54,627 nt of DNA from Magnetococcales bacterium (GTDB lineage Bacteria; Pseudomonadota; Magnetococcia; Magnetococcales; UBA8363): NCBI GenBank assembly GCA_002753515.1, contig PEAK01000026.1:1-54627 (forward strand), read 5' to 3'. Position 1 is the stretch's first letter, and each line of letters opens with the position of its first letter. Made by a program: the position numbers and the translations under genes. Shown here one piece after another: positions 8,113-40,722 of this stretch. The notes below the pieces were generated by a model. That model saw only the letters and a list, made by a program, of their open reading frames with translations, made no database searches and was not told where the DNA came from.

Positions 8113-11100
8113 TTACCGTTTTGTTATCATGGTGATCTGTATCGGGAGAGACCCCTGAATACGAGGGGTATAGGACTCATCAATCACATCCTGTTGCCAC
8201 TCCGAATCGTGCGTTGTTTTTGGCCACTGTTCATCCTTCTGCGCATATCGACGGGCAAATTCCCCCACCAACAGAAAAGAGCCGGTCGGTTCCTCCCTTT
8301 TTTTTCCGGTTTCGCGGAAGTAATCCCGTAGGCGGGCCGGATACTCAAGGGCGCGTCCGCCCAAGGTGCCGCTCTTTTCGTAGTGGTTCAATTCGCCCTG
8401 CACGTTCACATCGCAACCGGCACGGATGGGTTTCAGCTTCATGGCACCGGAGAGGATCGAAAAAATGGCAAGTGCTTGTTTAAAATTCTGCGTTACCAAA
8501 AAGTTGCTGTCATCCACGCTGTCTGGTTTAAAGCCCAGGAACGCATCCTTCTCCGAGCAATTATTCTCAATGAATCGTTGAATCTTGCCATTGGTTTCCC
8601 GTATCTGCCTCTCCAGCTCTGCACGAGCAGCGACTTGTGTCGATCCACACACATCCCACATGAGGATGAACCGGGGTACGGAGAGTTGACGGGGAGGCTC
8701 CTTGTATTGCTCCGCCCCGTAGATCCGCAGAAGCTGATCACAACCGCGAGTGATACGTAACACCATTTCCCGGATTTGCGGATAGAGTTCTGCAAACTTG
8801 GGCTGTTCGGGAGAACCTTTTAAACCTTCCAGCAATACATCCAGGTTTTTGGTCAGCGTGCGTCCGTTGACGGACGGATTGATTGTTTCCCCAACGATGG
8901 CGTCAGCCGCTTTAGCCTCGTGGATAAGCTTTTTCAGGTCTTCAAGGTTACAGACCAAGGTTTTCTTCCCCTTTCCTTCGGGAAGAGGGAAACCGGCCAC
9001 GTTCAACAATGACCGCAAGGTGCTGTTAACTCGGTGGGCGATATTGAGTGCTTTCTGGAAGTGGATTAGCCCTGCAAACGCACCTGATGTCTCTGATTCC
9101 TTGACATAATTTTCATTGAATGATTCAAAAAAATCATGCCACTGCCTTTCCAAATGAACATGGGGGCGGATCAACTTCTCTACGGTATCCACTGTCTCCT
9201 TCCGTCCCTCCCAGCATTCACCTTTTCTTTTTGCTTCGGCAGTGTAACGCGATGTTCTCTCAAGGAAATCATTAGACCTATTAAGATTGTCCGATGGATA
9301 TTTCCCGAGTGCATCCGGTTCCAGTTTTCCCATTTCATCCAGGGTCCGGGAGATTGAAGAGTGGGGATCATACAACCACAGGTTTAACTCTGCCTGAATG
9401 GCGTTGGTATAGTCCCCCAACTTGGCCGTGGTGGTCAGGGTGACCGGTGCCCGGGTGAGTACGGGATTGCCCGATCCGAAGAAACGTGCGAAAACCTCGG
9501 CCACGTCATTCACGGCATTTACGAGATTCCGGTCACTCAACCAGGGCGAATTTTCGTCGGCATAATTGTCCAGGATGATATTGCCCAGAGCGACACCGTC
9601 ATCTCTTGAGCCACCCTCAAAAATGAGAAATTCGCGCTTTCTTGCCCATTCCTGGAGTACGGTTGGTTTCCCTGGCTCAAATTCGCACTCCACTCGCGCA
9701 CCATAGAGGTGAAACCCCTTCTTGAAATTTCCGAGGTCCACAAAAGACCGCAAATCTCGGCTCCAATCGTTATCCAGCAACACTGCGGTACAAAATTTTT
9801 CAAATAAAACGGAAGGAACTCTTCCTTTGCGGATCAAATCCTTCTGATGGGCAGTTGGTTTGATATCATTGTTCTCCAGGGCTTTTTTCAGGGCATGGCT
9901 CAGCTTGTCGTGGAGCATTTTCAAGGCATAAACCGCCCGTTCCACAGATTCTTCTCCTACGCGGAACAGACGTAGCCAAACCTCTACGTTTTCGTCATTG
10001 GCAACTGGAACATAGCGGGGAACAACGGCACCATTATCTACCAGACGATCCAGGCAGTGGTGCAGGATGGCATGGCTGGTGCCTGGAAACCGCTGCTCGA
10101 CGATTTTCTCCAGGTGGCCGAGAGGGACACCGAAATCCAGCCGTGTCACCGGGTCATTGGCGGTATCCCGGAAGCAACGCTCTACACAGATGCTTTGCGC
10201 GTGGAACACGGTACGTAACAGATCATCGACATTGGTTGCTTTGGCGGCGAGGGCATCGAACTTTTCGTTGTACTCGGGTCGCACTTCGTGCGGGATGTGA
10301 TCCTTGGTAAGTAACACCTCTGGTTGGCGGGCATACCCTGCTTCGTTGACGGACTCTTGCAAATTTTGCCAAGTTGTCAGGAATTTCTCCTGGTTAATTC
10401 CCACAGGGATGCTTTGGTTGGGGCCAAGCAAATAGCGGAGACTTTTGGCATCGCAGCCAAAGAGGGTCGTTTCGTCGAATATGTCGCCAAGCATTTCGTG
10501 CAATACGGCTACCGCCCCCTTGAGCTTTCTTAGGCTGAGCAGGTAGTTAGCCCACATGACCAGAGAGCGTTGCGTCAGATGTTTTGCGGCAAGATGGGAT
10601 TCGACCTGTTTATCGGAGCGGTCATAAGATTCCAAACGTGCCAATGTTTCTTCCACGCGATGGAGGACGGGATGCCAGAGCGGTTCGATCTGGGCGCTGG
10701 GCCGCCATGTTGTCAGTTCACCAAATGTCCAGGGCCGTGGTGCCATGCAGACCATGGTGAGCTGTTTTCTATCGTGGGACAGAAAGAAGCGAAATTTATT
10801 GATCTGGTGGGGTTCCCCACTTTCCTGCACAGGCAAGGTCCACTTGTGCATCTGGGCAACGTCTGCTGTCCGGGCTACTTTGGAGGAGATGTTTTCCAGG
10901 TTTCCACCCTGTGTTTGGGCAAAGTCGTTTAATACCCGATCAAGCAGTTGCGGATTGAACGAGGCGTTCCGAAAACCGACTACCGGGAATTCGATATCCA
11001 GCGGACCACCCAGCATGCTGAAAGATTGGATCAATTGGTGTACGAACCCGGCGTTTTGGCCACGGGTGAGGGATTTGGCCCAGTACGCCAGATTTCTCTT

Positions 11101-11454
11101 GACGTTGGCTTTGACATCCGCACCAACGGCAAAGGGTGTGCCGGTAATCCTACTGTTCGTACCGGAGAAAATGATTTCTGCGGCGGCCATGATGCGTTGG
11201 AACGTGCTTCCGTAGGATACAAGGTCGTCAATGATCAGCAATTCCGTCCGTTGATGGTCGATCAAGGGAAGGGCGCGTTCACTGATGACTCGCTGAAGGA
11301 TCGATGGATCCAACAAACTTTCAGCAATCAGTACCTCAAGCAGGCGCGGTCCTTTGCGTGAAATAGCCAGGATCAGGCCATTATGTTGCCCAAGAAAGGC
11401 AACCCATTCTTTGAGTTGTCGCCGGTATCTTTGTGTAAACAGCGTTTCGGACAT
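8113..11454 (-). CDS. PRTase-like / class III nucleotidyl-cyclase-like fusion protein
   Basis: 1113 residues from ATG 11454 (a TTG 63 bases upstream is also in frame). Near the N-terminus, ELLIIDDLVSYGST (71-84) matches the phosphate-binding signature of type I phosphoribosyltransferases. A later segment, GGPLDIEFPVVGF, resembles the rest of such a domain. Residues about 250-900 are mostly helical with no family I can name. At the C-terminus, RFILMWDVCGST (928-939) matches the first metal-binding motif of class III adenylyl/guanylyl cyclases (F-x-D-x-x-G-S-T). DSVDDSNF (978-985) sits where the second metal aspartate would be, and GGRALEYPARLRDY (1032-1045) matches the G-x-x-V-N-x-A-A-R-L region. 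There is no signal peptide or membrane segment, so it is cytoplasmic. The reaction is unproven; synthesis of a nucleotide signal is the inference. A structured RNA transcript ends about 195 bp upstream on the same strand. Confidence 0.75.
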   Translation of the reverse strand: MSETLFTQRYRRQLKEWVAFLGQHNGLILAISRKGPRLLEVLIAESLLDPSILQRVISERALPLIDHQRTELLIIDDLVSYGSTFQRIMAAAEIIFSGTNSRITGTPFAVGADVKANVKRNLAYWAKSLTRGQNAGFVHQLIQSFSMLGGPLDIEFPVVGFRNASFNPQLLDRVLNDFAQTQGGNLENISSKVARTADVAQMHKWTLPVQESGEPHQINKFRFFLSHDRKQLTMVCMAPRPWTFGELTTWRPSAQIEPLWHPVLHRVEETLARLESYDRSDKQVESHLAAKHLTQRSLVMWANYLLSLRKLKGAVAVLHEMLGDIFDETTLFGCDAKSLRYLLGPNQSIPVGINQEKFLTTWQNLQESVNEAGYARQPEVLLTKDHIPHEVRPEYNEKFDALAAKATNVDDLLRTVFHAQSICVERCFRDTANDPVTRLDFGVPLGHLEKIVEQRFPGTSHAILHHCLDRLVDNGAVVPRYVPVANDENVEVWLRLFRVGEESVERAVYALKMLHDKLSHALKKALENNDIKPTAHQKDLIRKGRVPSVLFEKFCTAVLLDNDWSRDLRSFVDLGNFKKGFHLYGARVECEFEPGKPTVLQEWARKREFLIFEGGSRDDGVALGNIILDNYADENSPWLSDRNLVNAVNDVAEVFARFFGSGNPVLTRAPVTLTTTAKLGDYTNAIQAELNLWLYDPHSSISRTLDEMGKLEPDALGKYPSDNLNRSNDFLERTSRYTAEAKRKGECWEGRKETVDTVEKLIRPHVHLERQWHDFFESFNENYVKESETSGAFAGLIHFQKALNIAHRVNSTLRSLLNVAGFPLPEGKGKKTLVCNLEDLKKLIHEAKAADAIVGETINPSVNGRTLTKNLDVLLEGLKGSPEQPKFAELYPQIREMVLRITRGCDQLLRIYGAEQYKEPPRQLSVPRFILMWDVCGSTQVAARAELERQIRETNGKIQRFIENNCSEKDAFLGFKPDSVDDSNFLVTQNFKQALAIFSILSGAMKLKPIRAGCDVNVQGELNHYEKSGTLGGRALEYPARLRDYFRETGKKREEPTGSFLLVGEFARRYAQKDEQWPKTTHDSEWQQDVIDESYTPRIQGSLPIQITMITKR

Positions 11455-11648
11455 CGTTGTTAAACCATGAGATGGTAACGAGAATCGCTGGGTTGCCTGA
11501 ACGTCTCCAGTCCTCAAAGGCAGTCAGCCCTCAGTTCTGCGACGTTGTGAAACAATCAGCCAACATAGTAGTACTTCGGCAAGAAATCAAAGGCCAAAGA
11601 ATAAAGGAAACCGAAAGGATGGTCATTTGCGCTTGGGTTTGCCATGAT

Positions 11649-32225: not shown

Positions 32226-33065
32226 TTATTCCGTGGAAGTTACAGGGGGTGGCTCTGCAGGGTCGTTTTCCTGAGATGCGCCTTCCAAAGGTTCACGCAG
32301 CCCCCCCTTGAGTCGCAGGTGGCAACGATTATTGGCCACCATCAACCAATGGCTGACTTTGGGATCCATGGCATCGGATTGGTGGTGGGTGACCCAGATG
32401 ATCAAGCGGTCCCCCTTGTTCAACCAGCGATCCACCAGCGCCATGACTTCTTTTCGGGTTTCATCATCCAGGTTGCCGGTGGGTTCGTCGGCGAACAGGA
32501 CGTAGGGATCGTGAATCATCGCCTGGGCCAGGGCGACGCGCTGAAACTGTCCCCCCGACAATTCATTGGGGTAGCGTTCCAAAAATTCATCGGCGCTGGT
32601 TTCTTCGATGTAGGAGCCATCTTCGTCACGCAGCAGGATACGATCCATGGCGGCGTACACCTTGCGTTCCATGTCACTTTTGGAGAGCCCGCCTTGTAAT
32701 TCCAGGGGGTAGCGCAGGTTTTCCCGAATGGTGAGGTAAGGGGTCAGGGTACTGTTTTGGTAGGCGAAACCGAAACAGCGTCGGCGAATATCGGTCAGCG
32801 ACAGGGAAGAGGCTGCGGGATCCAATCCCCTGGGTCCCCAGGAGGCCTGGCTCCCATCGGGAAAGGTCCAGCGGACCCAGCCCTCCTTGGGGCGTTTCAG
32901 GAAGGTGAGGAGATAGAGCAGGGTACTCTTGCCACTGCCACTACGACCCAATACCGGCAGGCGTCTGGAAAAATCGTCATCATCCAGCTTGAGACCACCG
33001 ACATGCAGGTCAAACGCCCCGCCCCAGCCAACCGTGGCAGATCGAACTTGCAAACCCCAGTTCAT
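32226..33065 (-). CDS. ABC transporter ATP-binding protein (LolD/MacB/TagT-like)
   Basis: 279 residues from ATG 33065, which overlaps the stop of the upstream gene (ATGA) and has aggag about eight bases before it. Walker A is GRSGSGKST, the Q-loop is FAYQNSTLTPYLTIREN, the signature is LSGGQFQRVALAQA, and Walker B is YVLFADEPTGNLDDET. The H-loop is WVTHHQSDAM. The sequence type is that of ATPases working with FtsX/MacB-type mechanotransmission permeases rather than importers. No permease gene is nearby, so its membrane partner must be encoded elsewhere. Linkage to vWA and SUMF1 proteins recalls TagT of the type VI secretion threonine-phosphorylation pathway; this is an analogy. Confidence 0.9.
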   Translation of the reverse strand: MNWGLQVRSATVGWGGAFDLHVGGLKLDDDDFSRRLPVLGRSGSGKSTLLYLLTFLKRPKEGWVRWTFPDGSQASWGPRGLDPAASSLSLTDIRRRCFGFAYQNSTLTPYLTIRENLRYPLELQGGLSKSDMERKVYAAMDRILLRDEDGSYIEETSADEFLERYPNELSGGQFQRVALAQAMIHDPYVLFADEPTGNLDDETRKEVMALVDRWLNKGDRLIIWVTHHQSDAMDPKVSHWLMVANNRCHLRLKGGLREPLEGASQENDPAEPPPVTSTE

Positions 33066-35728
33066 GGCAGATACTCCTGTGGGATCCAATACCCCCGTGT
33101 CCCTCCGAAAGTGTGGCTGAAGCGGTAATCTTTGCTGTTGCCCAGGGGTTCGGAACGGATGCCACCGTCGATTTTAATGATTCTTCGACCATTTTCGGTG
33201 GTATCGGGGCATTGGTTGGGGCGGAACGGTTCGACTTTGAAGACGGGCTTGTTGAAATCTTTTTCGACGATCTCCAACATTTCCCTGGAGTTGATAGCCC
33301 AGGCAGCGAGACGACGCAGCTCGCACAGCGGTACGGCCGCCACAGGTGCCCCCGTTTTATCGATCATGGGAGAGCCGTTGTTTCCCAGGGCGATCAGATG
33401 ACCATCCTTGTCGCGAACCGATTTTTCCGCGAGCAAGGCGTTGACATTGTAACTGAGCAATGGGCTATGGTTGCGTACTGGCAGCCCACCGCGACGCTGG
33501 GCGTACTCTATGGGCGATTCGCCGGAGCTGTTCATGGCGGGAAGGCGCAAATTATTCTGCAATCCCACTGCCAGGGCATTGCCCAAGGCTCGACGCAACT
33601 GGGGTTCGGGTAGCTCGTTGTAGCCATCGAAACCGCGCAGGATGCGGATCCACGAGGTCAACGCGTTACTGGTGACCCACAGTTCTTCCACCACTTTATC
33701 GTCTGCCTCGATGTAGCCGATGCGGGTCGTGTCGTACACACGTTGCTGGCATTGTTTGCCGAGCTGGCCACAGGCTCCCGATTTCAGGATATGCCAGTAG
33801 ACACCTGGAATATCGACACGTTCACGGCGCAGGCGGTCGATGATGGTCACCAACGACCCGCCGCCGTGGATATCCAGGATGATTTCATCGATCAGGGCGC
33901 TGGAGCCCAATTTTTCCACGGTGCCAACCATGCGTTGGATCAGACCTTGTTCGTCGAGACGCAGGACATGGTCGGTAATTTTGCTGTCGGCGGGCAATGT
34001 TTGTCCCAACAGCTCCTTGGCTTGACTTTCAAACTTGACATAGGCGGCGGAATAGGCCTTGGGATGTTTGGACTGGTGGGCCAAAGAGGGTGTTTGCACA
34101 AAGAAGCTGATCAGATTGTCACCCAGGCTTTTGCTGCCCCGCTGCATCAATGAAATCAATGTTTTTATGTTGACCGGGTTGGCATATTTGGCCTTTTGGT
34201 AGAGTTGGCCACGATTGCTAACGGCGGGTCGCGTAGTTTGGTAACCCGAGTCGCCGACGACAAACAAGATTTTAATGTTATCGGGACACGGTTTTAAGTC
34301 CATGCTCAAAACCTGGTTCAATCCGCCGAACAAATTCTCTTCATAGTCATCGTCGGTATCGCTTTCCGAGGCGCGCACCTTGGCGATGGCTTTTTGGAAG
34401 GAATCAAAAGCGGCTTTTTGTTGCACTTCGTTCAAATCGCACTGGGCAGGCAGGGGGTGTCCTTCACCGATGCCGTCACCGGGACCATCGGTGAATATCC
34501 TATCGGCATAGGGATCCCGGTAGACCCGGAAGCCGAAACGAAACTCGGTATCCTTGAATCCTTGCGCTTTTTTCAGTTTATTGATGACCTCCTGGATGAC
34601 GCCGGGTTGGTCGGGTGTACCGCGTACCGCATCGATGAACGGCCCCATGCTAGCCGTGGCATCGAGCAGGAAAAAGATATCGACGTGTTTTTTGGCGGAG
34701 AGTGAGGCTATCCCCGGCATGATGCGTTGGGCGAGTCCGGTGGATATGGCGACCTTGTCGTCGCCAACGCGGCGACCTACCAATCCGGGACGGGCAAGGG
34801 CCACCTGGAAGAATCGTTTTTTCGCGCTGGTGGCTCCCACGCTCTCGGGGGCTATGGTGCGACCGTCCTGATCCACCATCTCCAGGACAGGGATGCGTAG
34901 CGCCGACTTGAACCAATCCCGACCTCCCAAAATGGGGTGGCAGGTTTTGTTGTCGCGGGCCACGGCATCCTTGAGTTGTTCATAGGTGCAGATGGTGCCC
35001 GGACTGACGCCATCGGGGGCGAGCAGGTCTTCACGGGGACGGATGCTGAAGGCGTTGTTCCAGATGAAGCCATCCTTCTTGGCAACCCATCCCAATAGGG
35101 GGGCATCTTTATCAAGCCGGAAACGATCGGCCAGCAGGTAGGCCCCATCGTTTTGAGCGAACACGAAATACATGTGAAACCGTGAGGCTCCCTCGCGGCA
35201 GTTGCCTTGGCCACCAACGCAATCCTTGAGTTCGGGATCCTGAAATATCTGTACGGTGGGAGCGACCGCATCATCGGGTGTTTTGGCATCGTCAGGACGG
35301 ATGGACGTATCTGTCTTGACGAAGAATTTCATCTCAAGGCCCGCTTCGCTCCTGGTCGGCAGCTCACCGCATAGAAGGTCCTCCCGGGCAACCCATCCGG
35401 TTGCTTCGGGCTGCTCCTTGTATCGCAGGGCGTGGATTTTAAACAGGGTGTCCGTGGCATCGAGGAGTTCCGCCTGTTGATTAAAAATGAGGTAGCTGGA
35501 AACCTTGCCACCTTTGTTGTCGCTATAGAGGGGCGCATCCTGTCGAAGTACCCGGAGGACTCCAGACCATAGGATGGTTTTATCCTGCTTGAAGCGCGCC
35601 AGATCAAAGGAGGAGCAGCTGGCCGCTGGGACAGCATCGTTTGCGGCCAGTGCCAGGTGTGGACCGTACACGACAAGCAGGAATAGCGTACCGAGGAAGG
35701 TTGGTATGAAAAAGGTTCGACTTGTCAC
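33062..35728 (-). CDS. Periplasmic von Willebrand A domain protein
   Basis: 888 residues from GTG 35728, chosen because aagggatctaac directly precedes it and a clean signal peptide follows (TSRTFFIPTFLGTLFLLVVY, cleaved near LALAAND). An ATG at 35764 is in frame. Residues about 30-330 contain SH3-like segments (VLRQDAPLYSDN, EATGWVAREDLLCGELP; later LLGWVAKKDGFIWNN). The vWA domain starts about 350 with HVDIFFLLDATASMGPFIDA, whose DATAS is the MIDAS metal site, and continues to ILFVVGDSGYQT. The C-terminal half is unassigned. It resembles the vWA part of PpkA-type kinases, but no kinase domain is present. The genes on each side are a SUMF1-like and an ABC ATPase gene. Confidence 0.83.
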   Translation of the reverse strand: MTSRTFFIPTFLGTLFLLVVYGPHLALAANDAVPAASCSSFDLARFKQDKTILWSGVLRVLRQDAPLYSDNKGGKVSSYLIFNQQAELLDATDTLFKIHALRYKEQPEATGWVAREDLLCGELPTRSEAGLEMKFFVKTDTSIRPDDAKTPDDAVAPTVQIFQDPELKDCVGGQGNCREGASRFHMYFVFAQNDGAYLLADRFRLDKDAPLLGWVAKKDGFIWNNAFSIRPREDLLAPDGVSPGTICTYEQLKDAVARDNKTCHPILGGRDWFKSALRIPVLEMVDQDGRTIAPESVGATSAKKRFFQVALARPGLVGRRVGDDKVAISTGLAQRIMPGIASLSAKKHVDIFFLLDATASMGPFIDAVRGTPDQPGVIQEVINKLKKAQGFKDTEFRFGFRVYRDPYADRIFTDGPGDGIGEGHPLPAQCDLNEVQQKAAFDSFQKAIAKVRASESDTDDDYEENLFGGLNQVLSMDLKPCPDNIKILFVVGDSGYQTTRPAVSNRGQLYQKAKYANPVNIKTLISLMQRGSKSLGDNLISFFVQTPSLAHQSKHPKAYSAAYVKFESQAKELLGQTLPADSKITDHVLRLDEQGLIQRMVGTVEKLGSSALIDEIILDIHGGGSLVTIIDRLRRERVDIPGVYWHILKSGACGQLGKQCQQRVYDTTRIGYIEADDKVVEELWVTSNALTSWIRILRGFDGYNELPEPQLRRALGNALAVGLQNNLRLPAMNSSGESPIEYAQRRGGLPVRNHSPLLSYNVNALLAEKSVRDKDGHLIALGNNGSPMIDKTGAPVAAVPLCELRRLAAWAINSREMLEIVEKDFNKPVFKVEPFRPNQCPDTTENGRRIIKIDGGIRSEPLGNSKDYRFSHTFGGTRGYWIPQEYLP

Positions 35729-35788
35729 GTTAGATCCCTTAATAAATTGAACTTTTTGTTGCATGTGTCAGGCGCCGGGTTACGATCA

Positions 35789-37869: not shown

Positions 37870-40722
37870 ATGAAAAGAGTATTGATCATTGGTGGTATGG
37901 CTTCCGGTCCAAAATTTGCCATGGCTTTGAAAAGGCGGCGTCCTGACGTCGAGATTACTATCATTGAAATGAGTGATTATCTATCATTTGGGGCTTGTGT
38001 TCTTCCCCACCTTCTATCAGGTGTAGTGGCAGACGTAGAAGCGCTCAATCGTACTCCCTTAGGGGAAGAAAGAAATTCAACTTTCTTTTTGAAAAATGGT
38101 AATATCGCTACGCAAACGAAAACAGAGGCCCTTTGGGTTGATCGTTTACGAAGAAAGGTGATTACCCGGTCCTTATTATCGGAAGATAAAGTCATAGACG
38201 TGGGTTTTTTTGCCGGTCACGCCAGTGATTTTGATGTGATTCAAAAAATGGGTTTTATCAAAGACAATCAACTCACAGAGAAATTTTTTGATCAAGTGAG
38301 ACGTAAGGGAGTAGATGCTGAACATGACGAGTTAACGGTATCGACAGGTGGTGATTCATCACCGTATCGTCGATTTATTGACTTTCTGTTCCATCGATCC
38401 ATTTTGCTTGCGTTTTCATACGACAAATTATTCCTGGGTACTGGATCCACGGCGACGATTCCCCCCCTGACCTGCTATGACGATACAAAAATAATAGACA
38501 ACGTCCTGGTTTTTAAAAATGCTTTTTTGGTACGTACGATGGACGATGGTCGAGCAATTTCCAAAAGATTAAAAGTAGATAGTCCAAAGATGGTCACGAT
38601 TGTCGGTGGTGGGCTGATTGGTGTTGAGGTTGCTGCGGCGGTGCGAGATTTTGACGAGAATGTCGCTGTGCAGATTATTGAGATGAGGCCATCGATACTT
38701 TCAGATATGATAGAAGCTGATATATCTATCCATGCACAAAATTACCTGATAAGGAAACGTATAACACTCAATACCTCCACAAAAATTACAATCGTTCGTG
38801 GTTCGGATGGGTTCGCACGCACCCTTGAAACCGATCGAGGAGAATTATTTTCAACGGATTTGCTGTTGATTTGCACTGGCGTCCGTCCCAACGCACAGCT
38901 CGCGACACGGATCGGTTTGGATATTGGCGTAACCGGGGGAATACGGGTCAATGAACGCATGGAGACTTCCGATTCTGATATTCTTGCGGCAGGCGACTGT
39001 ATCGAAAACACTCACCGAGTCAGTGGGAAGCCAGTCGTTGCTCCCTTTGGTGACCTAGCCAATATTCAAGCACGCGTTGCTGCTGCAAATCTTTGCGGCC
39101 AGTCCATGGTATTCGAAGGAGTTATAGGAACGAGTATTGCAGAGATTGGCATAGAGAAAGATTCCTTCGGTGGTATCATCGCTCGTTATTCAGTCGGTGC
39201 TACTGGTCTGACTGAAAAAGAAGCTATGGAAGCTGGTTTTGATGTGGAGACTGTTTTGTTGCCGAGTAAAGATAGAATTTATTCTATGCCTGAAGCAGAA
39301 ATGATCTATCTGAAAATGATCGCAGACAAAAAAAATAGACGTTTACTTGGTGTTCAGGGAAGTGGCTTAGGGGATATCAATCGTCGCATAGCTTCAGCGG
39401 CAGCTTGGATTTATACAGGTGCATCCATTGATCAGTTATCCGTACTTGACCTTCCATATGCTCCATCGTATTCACCCGCTATCGATCCACTCATCATGGG
39501 AGCATGGGTCTTACAGAATAAAATTGCAGGACTATTTAGTGGGATCAAGCCACAAGAATTATTCGATAAACTTAAGAATCGCGAAATATTTCAATTGATT
39601 GATGTCCGTGAACCTATCGAATTTATGAATGAATCAATTCCTGGTTCTATGTTGATCCCTCTTAATGAGATCGAAAATTGGCTTTCTGATGCTCCTCGCA
39701 ATCAGGAATTCGTTCTTGTTTGTCTCGTTGGTCTAAGAAGTTATCTTGCTGCCAGAAAAATGCTATCCATGGGTTTTACTAATGTTAGGGTTATGGAAGG
39801 AGGTCTGGCTCTCTGGGGTGGCAAGATAGTCGGTGGAGATGATTCGGGCCAAGACTGCTGTATGATTCGATCCTATCTCATTGATAATCCTTCTGCTACA
39901 CAAAATTTACTCGATCTTGCTCCCAGATCGCCAAATTTAAAGAATGAAACGGTTAATATAGATGTATTAAACAGACGTAACGACCTGAGAACAAATATAA
40001 ATCATCCGCTATCACTGGAAACCGAGGGCAAATTGGTCTTTCAGGGCGTTTCTAGGAACATCAGCAGGAAAGGGATTTTCCTTTTTCTTGGTTATATGCC
40101 ACGTGGCATTCAGCTAGGGGAAGCAGGAAATGTATCAATCAATACTTGGTGCGGCACGCAATTCCGATTCCCTTGTAATGTCCAACATGTTTCTCAGGAT
40201 GGTGTCGGATTGGCGGTTCATGACTGGGACTTATTTGTCAATTCCTTGATTCGTGACATGGCAATTTTCAATACTGGAGAAAAGACGTTCGATGATGACC
40301 ATGTTAAAATGTGGAATATTCTCGATAATTTTTTTAATACATCGTTAAACCACGATAGTCAAAAAATATGGAGTACCGCACTACTTGATTGTGCTCGCAA
40401 GCATTTCTGGATAGAAGAAATAATGATGAAAAAAAATCGCTATCCAGGTTTGGATCGTCATATTGAGCATCATCAGCACTTTATTGACCAGGCTGAGGCG
40501 TTACATAATACAATTAATGAAAGTGATGTCGGAAACCCCGATGATCCTTTATCCTTTCATCTCGTCTCAAAGAAAAAGTTTGTGGAGTTCTTGAAATTTT
40601 GGCTTGTTCGGCACACGAATAGTATGGATCAAAGCATGGTCACTTATTTTCGCTATAAAGGTATTCGTGCAGTAATAAATAGTGACGACTATGACGTAGA
40701 AAATTCCAAATATGGACATTAA
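37870..40722 (+). CDS. CoA-disulfide reductase-like / rhodanese / PilZ / bacteriohemerythrin fusion
   Basis: 950 residues, ATG 37870 with agga eight bases upstream. Module 1 (1-540) is a flavin NADH:disulfide reductase: FAD motif IIGGMASGPKFAMA, the single redox cysteine Cys43 in SFGACVLPHLL as in CoA-disulfide reductases, NAD motif VTIVGGGLIGVEVA (242-255), and FAD motif ILAAGD. Module 2 (about 560-652) is rhodanese, with IDVREPIEF and active Cys618 in VCLVGLRS. Module 3 (about 700-790) is PilZ, with R703-x3-R707 and N730-x-S-x-x-G735 for c-di-GMP. Module 4 (about 800-930) is hemerythrin with all seven di-iron ligands visible: His811, His845, Glu849, His864, His868, His915, Asp920. About 90 extra residues (roughly 95-180) interrupt the first FAD half. 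The gene is clearly more AT-rich than its neighbours and ends inside a repeat. It is probably a persulfide or CoA-disulfide reductase controlled by oxygen and c-di-GMP; that role is inferred. Confidence 0.88.
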   Translation: MKRVLIIGGMASGPKFAMALKRRRPDVEITIIEMSDYLSFGACVLPHLLSGVVADVEALNRTPLGEERNSTFFLKNGNIATQTKTEALWVDRLRRKVITRSLLSEDKVIDVGFFAGHASDFDVIQKMGFIKDNQLTEKFFDQVRRKGVDAEHDELTVSTGGDSSPYRRFIDFLFHRSILLAFSYDKLFLGTGSTATIPPLTCYDDTKIIDNVLVFKNAFLVRTMDDGRAISKRLKVDSPKMVTIVGGGLIGVEVAAAVRDFDENVAVQIIEMRPSILSDMIEADISIHAQNYLIRKRITLNTSTKITIVRGSDGFARTLETDRGELFSTDLLLICTGVRPNAQLATRIGLDIGVTGGIRVNERMETSDSDILAAGDCIENTHRVSGKPVVAPFGDLANIQARVAAANLCGQSMVFEGVIGTSIAEIGIEKDSFGGIIARYSVGATGLTEKEAMEAGFDVETVLLPSKDRIYSMPEAEMIYLKMIADKKNRRLLGVQGSGLGDINRRIASAAAWIYTGASIDQLSVLDLPYAPSYSPAIDPLIMGAWVLQNKIAGLFSGIKPQELFDKLKNREIFQLIDVREPIEFMNESIPGSMLIPLNEIENWLSDAPRNQEFVLVCLVGLRSYLAARKMLSMGFTNVRVMEGGLALWGGKIVGGDDSGQDCCMIRSYLIDNPSATQNLLDLAPRSPNLKNETVNIDVLNRRNDLRTNINHPLSLETEGKLVFQGVSRNISRKGIFLFLGYMPRGIQLGEAGNVSINTWCGTQFRFPCNVQHVSQDGVGLAVHDWDLFVNSLIRDMAIFNTGEKTFDDDHVKMWNILDNFFNTSLNHDSQKIWSTALLDCARKHFWIEEIMMKKNRYPGLDRHIEHHQHFIDQAEALHNTINESDVGNPDDPLSFHLVSKKKFVEFLKFWLVRHTNSMDQSMVTYFRYKGIRAVINSDDYDVENSKYGH

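Follow-up and report, generated by a model that had tools for sequence, protein, structure and literature searches.

A PRTase-like N-terminus and a class III cyclase-like C-terminus in a single predicted protein of a Magnetococcales bacterium

Analysis of a 54,627-nucleotide stretch of DNA from a Magnetococcales bacterium (the whole of which is referred to here as the window) identified an ORF whose protein product resembles a PRTase at its N-terminus and a class III nucleotidyl cyclase at its C-terminus. No description of such a combination in a single chain was found in the open-access literature; it consists of known folds in a new domain combination, with a putative mechanism. Tentatively, the protein can be read as a cytoplasmic PRPP or nucleotide sensor joined to a nucleotidyl cyclase in one chain. 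If this is true, PRPP or nucleotide status would be tied directly to second-messenger synthesis within one polypeptide, offering a simple purified system for studying the gating of cyclic-nucleotide signalling by nucleotide pools, and the range of class III cyclases would be widened by a very divergent form lacking the usual Asn. The features of the gene are collected in Table 1.

Table 1. Features of the gene and its product, with positions in the window
Feature	Residues	Position	Strand	Remarks
Whole gene		8113..11454	(-)	1113 aa, ATG start, stop included; full-length relative 36% identical
PRTase-like domain	1-180	10915..11454	(-)	44% identity to relative; hhalign against 30 canonical PRTases
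Putative PPi-loop position, GLILAISRKGPRLLE	26-40	11335..11379	(-)	15/15 identical in relative
PRPP loop DD-x4-G-[ST]-T, LLIIDDLVSYGSTF	72-85	11200..11241	(-)	Relative: LMILDDLVAHGTTF
Winged-helix-like region	401-500	9955..10254	(-)	46% identity to relative; low-confidence model matches, weak
Conserved module	546-720	9295..9819	(-)	39% identity to relative; no Pfam match
Poorly conserved region before cyclase-like domain	787-914	8713..9096	(-)	Predicted helical bundle, weak
Class III nucleotidyl cyclase-like domain	925-1113	8116..8682	(-)	Ordered block test; four-motif signature
First strand and first metal Asp (D934), FILMWDVCGST	929-939	8638..8670	(-)	Block M1 here; WDVC invariant in relative
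Hairpin with second metal Asp (D981/D982), SVDDSNFLV	979-987	8494..8520	(-)	DD invariant; placed by eye
RxG strand and G-x-A-[VLF]-x3-AR helix, PIRAGC...GGRALEYPARLRDYFRE	1009-1048	8311..8430	(-)	Blocks M3 and M4

The ORF (8113-11454, minus strand) was found to be without internal stops, its 1113 aa being counted from an ATG, and belongs to a genome of 4.33 Mb that is 97% complete. An upstream TTG at 11517 would provide an alternative start giving 1134 aa, with alignment to a relative of 1148 aa supporting the ATG as the favoured start. This relative, the only one found, comes from a congeneric species, where its locus is different, and aligns with the protein from end to end (36% identity, E 4e-185), and judged by this identity the ORF is a coding sequence under purifying selection. 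Identity was 44% for residues 1-180, 31% for 181-300, 23% for 301-400, 46% for 401-500, 39% for 546-720, 27% for 721-914, 42% for 915-1048 and 38% for 1049-1113, defining four conserved modules (1-180, 401-500, 546-720 and 915-1113) with weakly conserved stretches between them. Both the PRPP-loop-like site (DDLVSYGST, DDLVAHGTT in the relative) and the cyclase-like site (WDVCGST, WDVCNSS in the relative) were kept. The three motifs quoted in an earlier note on this DNA were recovered at residues 71-84 (ELLIIDDLVSYGST), 928-939 (RFILMWDVCGST) and 1032-1045 (GGRALEYPARLRDY), and its description of the protein as cytoplasmic fits the absence of any strongly hydrophobic 19-mer. A near-consensus promoter (TTGACA-17-TATAGT) was also observed on the strand of the gene at 12151-12123 (-), separated from the gene by a strong terminator-like hairpin of 15 pairs at 11685-11653 (-); because this hairpin intervenes, the promoter may serve a short separate transcript.

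Searches of Pfam, NCBIfam, PHROG, PADLOC and PDB returned nothing at significance for the 1113-aa protein. Within the genus, two of eight genomes were found to carry the gene, at unrelated loci, with no match in the other six, three of which are just 74-78% complete. No further relatives were identified in an in-depth survey of more than 1000 Pseudomonadota genomes, in a scan of the genomes of 84,980 species limited to two peptide patterns, or among phages, plasmids and viral contigs (six viral-contig scans). Phyla other than Pseudomonadota were covered by the two-pattern scan only, and relatives may exist there. Two weak matches were rejected as chance, namely L008, a LysR-type regulator by sequence, and a Vibrio plasmid match (E 4) that adjoins a gene of the PRTRC system.

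At the N-terminus, GLILAISRKGPRLLE is followed by ERALP and then by LLIIDDLVSYGSTFQRI (LMILDDLVAHGTTFQRI in the relative), the last of these following a strand and conforming to DD-x4-G-[ST]-T in both proteins, as in PRPP loops, for which the canonical sequence in ComFC is DDIITTGTTL (PMC9005727). From the order of these elements, residues 26-40 (GLILAISRKGPRLLE) would correspond to the PPi loop. When 30 canonical PRTases from the order were compared as a profile, exactly the DD-x4-G-[ST]-T loop was selected (P 5e-4), and with hhalign none of 979 column shuffles reached the observed score, the match spanning just 27 columns around the loop. N-terminal tiles of both proteins ranked in the top 10 among 1334 tiles and shuffles. 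A weak PHROG match to a phage ribose-phosphate pyrophosphokinase (PRPP synthetase) fell on the same loop (residues 67-91, E 0.11), while searches with PF00156 and against PDB gave no significant match for this region. These profile and motif tests, along with conservation in the 36% identical relative, support the PRTase-like N-terminus that the earlier note had proposed. The protein shares with canonical and ComFC-like PRTases (PF00156) a DD-x4-G-[ST]-T motif after a hydrophobic strand and a conserved loop at the putative PPi-loop position, but differs from canonical members in its lack of a PF00156 match, a PPi-to-PRPP-loop spacing that seems short and a chain of 1113 aa. Furthermore, the conserved ISRKGPRLLE and ERALP have the right order for a PPi loop and a flexible loop, but their sequences are unlike the canonical loops, ISRKGPRLLE being dissimilar to usual PPi loops.

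PRTase domains are also found in conflict-type proteins, namely PRTase-CE (PF24390) and the effectors of type III retrons, where a PRTase is partnered by a winged-helix protein (PMC12548924). Identity with PRTase-CE was rejected, as no PF24390 match was obtained in the protein or in the window's genome and the PRTase-CE loop, (V/T)D(D/F)xxG(T/S)G, differs from the DD-x4-GST seen here (a weak comparison). No reverse transcriptase was identified among the neighbours scanned. PRTase-CE proteins were observed in several Magnetococcales genomes (L060, L061, L064, L065, L067, L072), including that of the relative's carrier.

The middle of the protein had previously been described as unassigned. This no longer applies to a winged-helix-like part at approximately residues 401-500 and a conserved module at 546-720, both of which are recognisable, but it still holds for the fold of the 546-720 module, which is without a Pfam match. 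AlphaFold models of the two protein halves, built from two-sequence alignments, had pLDDT values of 35 and 38 and were unusable, because too few relatives were available for the depth of the alignment. Foldseek with these low-confidence models returned nothing at E<=0.001, and PRTase was absent from the VIA match list for the N-terminal half, an absence that carries no weight at pLDDT 35-38. Residues 401-500 (HLEKIVEQRFPG...SHAILHHCLDRLVDNGAVVPRYVP...WLRLFRVGE) include a segment, 404-480, for which the low-confidence model matched the winged helices of Fur/PerR/Nur/Zur, PadR and cullin proteins at Z 3.3-4.6, possibly chance level. This region probably forms a winged helix, a reading given moderate weight. 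Model matches of the same low confidence suggested a helical bundle at 787-914, within the poorly conserved stretch.

The elements of the C-terminus were found in the order FILMWDVCGST (D934), a long helix, FKPDSVDDSNFLV (K976, D981/D982), a helix, PIRAGC, GTLGGRALEYPARLRDY (T1030, E1037, R1041) and FLLVGEFARR, which equals the order of class III cyclases. In common with the latter (Guanylate_cyc, PF00211), D[IV]xG[FS]T, a DD hairpin, RxG and G-x-A-x4-AR succeed one another, and both metal Asp, the Lys, the Thr/Ser and the Arg are present. Differences from class III cyclases were the absence of a PF00211 match, a Trp before the first Asp, a Glu for the Asn, a shorter segment from the second metal site to RxG and the fusion to a PRTase-like domain. 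Both metal Asp positions (D934 and D981/D982, the second assigned by eye) were invariant in both members, as were R, G, E and AR within residues 1009-1048. The transition-state Asn is replaced by Glu1037 in both members with Arg1041 retained, and the Gly-Ser-Thr after the first metal Asp becomes Asn-Ser-Ser in the relative. Cyclase-like families lacking this Asn exist, the DUF2652 proteins likewise having an atypical residue in its place (PMC4886424). Lys and Thr/Ser at the base-contact positions (K976, T1030) would suit ATP. Taken together, D934, D981/D982, K976, T1030 (Ser in the relative) and R1041 point to a purine-type cyclase that is active, with Glu unusually taking the place of Asn.

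The replacement of Asn by Glu in both members, and of GST by NSS in the relative, could instead mean that both folds are real but that the cyclase-like domain is a dead nucleotide-binding pseudo-enzyme, the protein being a nucleotide-responsive regulator acting through its winged helix. The winged-helix-like region at 401-500 agrees with such a role, and the apparent pairing of PRTase-like and winged-helix parts is common to this protein and Bacillus PurR, suggesting a nucleotide-responsive regulator, although the domain order is reversed here, the protein is far larger and a cyclase-like domain is added. The DNA-binding part of PurR is a winged helix. In PurR a DNA-binding function accompanies a PRTase domain that senses PRPP (PMC9005727). 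A pseudo-enzyme would, however, have no need of the metal Asp, Lys and Arg that are invariant at 36% overall identity, and this explanation is considered rather unlikely.

Simple searches missed the cyclase resemblance of the C-terminus: with a plain HMM and with hhalign against a cyclase profile it did not beat shuffles, and PF00211 gave no match up to E 10. The region is accordingly termed cyclase-like here, by sequence, rather than a member of the PF00211 family. A block test was devised because of these missed matches, its motif blocks, fitted in order, being taken exclusively from the genome's own seven ordinary class III cyclases. On the two-sequence alignment the joint block score was 2.4, compared to a shuffle mean of -20.6 (sd 5.2; z 4.4), and was reached by none of 3000 shuffles. 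Blocks M1, M3, M4 and M5 landed in order at the predicted C-terminal motifs, and nothing elsewhere in the protein came close, while block M2 (second metal site) was not placed at the by-eye hairpin of residues 979-987. For each protein alone the single-sequence score had a p of about 0.01, a score matched by roughly 5% of segments from real unrelated ORFs. A four-motif signature was found in none of 200,000 shuffles; the non-cyclase ORFs tested also lacked it, and it is given less weight as the pattern was tuned to the protein. The low-confidence model (pLDDT 35) showed a predicted beta-alpha-beta-alpha order and a ferredoxin-like match at residues 926-1019 (Z 7.4).

The failure of standard profile searches and the modest single-sequence scores would be expected if the cyclase likeness were coincidental, the C-terminus being another ferredoxin-like or an unrelated nucleotide-binding domain and the PRTase-like part alone being real. 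This is judged unlikely in view of the joint block test, with four of five blocks in their predicted places, and of the (tuned) signature. The block and motif tests and the conservation in the relative instead argue for the class III cyclase-like C-terminus put forward in the earlier note. A GGDEF domain at the C-terminus was rejected, the GG[DE]xF motif being absent. The seven ordinary class III cyclases of the window's genome (L022-L028) all lie above the Pfam cut-off, and cyclic-nucleotide signalling is therefore well developed in this organism.

Under the preferred reading of a sensor joined to a cyclase, the N-terminal PRTase-like domain would bind PRPP or a nucleotide, the winged helix and the 546-720 module would act as a relay or contact nucleic acid, and the C-terminal domain would form a cyclic nucleotide once the protein dimerises in the right state. 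The fit of both ends to their superfamilies and the conservation of the motifs were computed, while catalytic activity, the ligand, the direction of control and the winged helix are what we infer. PRTase domains that act as sensors of PRPP or nucleotides are found in PurR and PyrR (PMC9005727), and by analogy with PurR the PRTase-like part more probably senses a nucleotide than makes one. The earlier note suggested that one end makes a base, PRPP or nucleotide and the other a cyclic nucleotide; these putative activities are possible, a sensing-only role for the PRTase part being at least as likely as synthesis. It is quite improbable that an unusual nucleotide is made or sensed by a PRTase-type domain and that it, or the signal, is passed on to the class III cyclase domain and turned into a new kind of cyclic-nucleotide messenger, read in part by the protein's own winged helix.

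The window copy of the gene is flanked by a SCO1 gene and an RND pump gene, while that of the relative is downstream of recA, gyrA, a methyltransferase gene and GDT1 and upstream of a nitroreductase gene. Because the loci differ between the two carriers, the gene is probably accessory. A mobile element was rejected, since flanking repeats and a tRNA are absent. No defence gene, effector or sign of a mobile element was identified beside either copy, and no PADLOC match was obtained. The lack of an adjacent effector gene, already pointed out for the window, therefore applies to the relative's copy too, and neither of the two loci in this survey of homologue neighbourhoods carries a defence gene. 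The defence role that the earlier note had considered plausible received almost no support, the neighbours of both copies being housekeeping or efflux genes. As in PycC of Pycsar, the C-terminus is predicted to be a soluble domain with the class III cyclase fold and two metal Asp. PycC, however, is a small stand-alone cyclase with a receptor effector, whereas the cyclase-like domain described here is the end of a large chain; a Pycsar-type receptor effector (PycTM or PycTIR) was not among the neighbours of either copy. Class III cyclases function in Pycsar (PMC11224242) and the patchy presence of the gene (two of eight genomes, unrelated loci, 36% identity), as for accessory genes, is the only hint of a Pycsar-like single-gene anti-phage system in which the N-terminal or middle modules would sense infection and the cyclase would form an alarm nucleotide detected by a receptor encoded elsewhere, a highly improbable explanation given the neighbours listed above, the missing effector and PADLOC match and the absence of the gene from the phages, plasmids and viral contigs searched.

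Elsewhere in the window, a 900-aa ORF at 33062-35764 (-) was without a Pfam or PADLOC match. Furthermore, the ORF at 37870-40719 (+) was found to encode a 950-aa protein that combines a pyridine nucleotide-disulphide oxidoreductase, a rhodanese and a PilZ (cyclic-di-GMP-binding) domain, and is possibly a redox enzyme under cyclic-di-GMP control.
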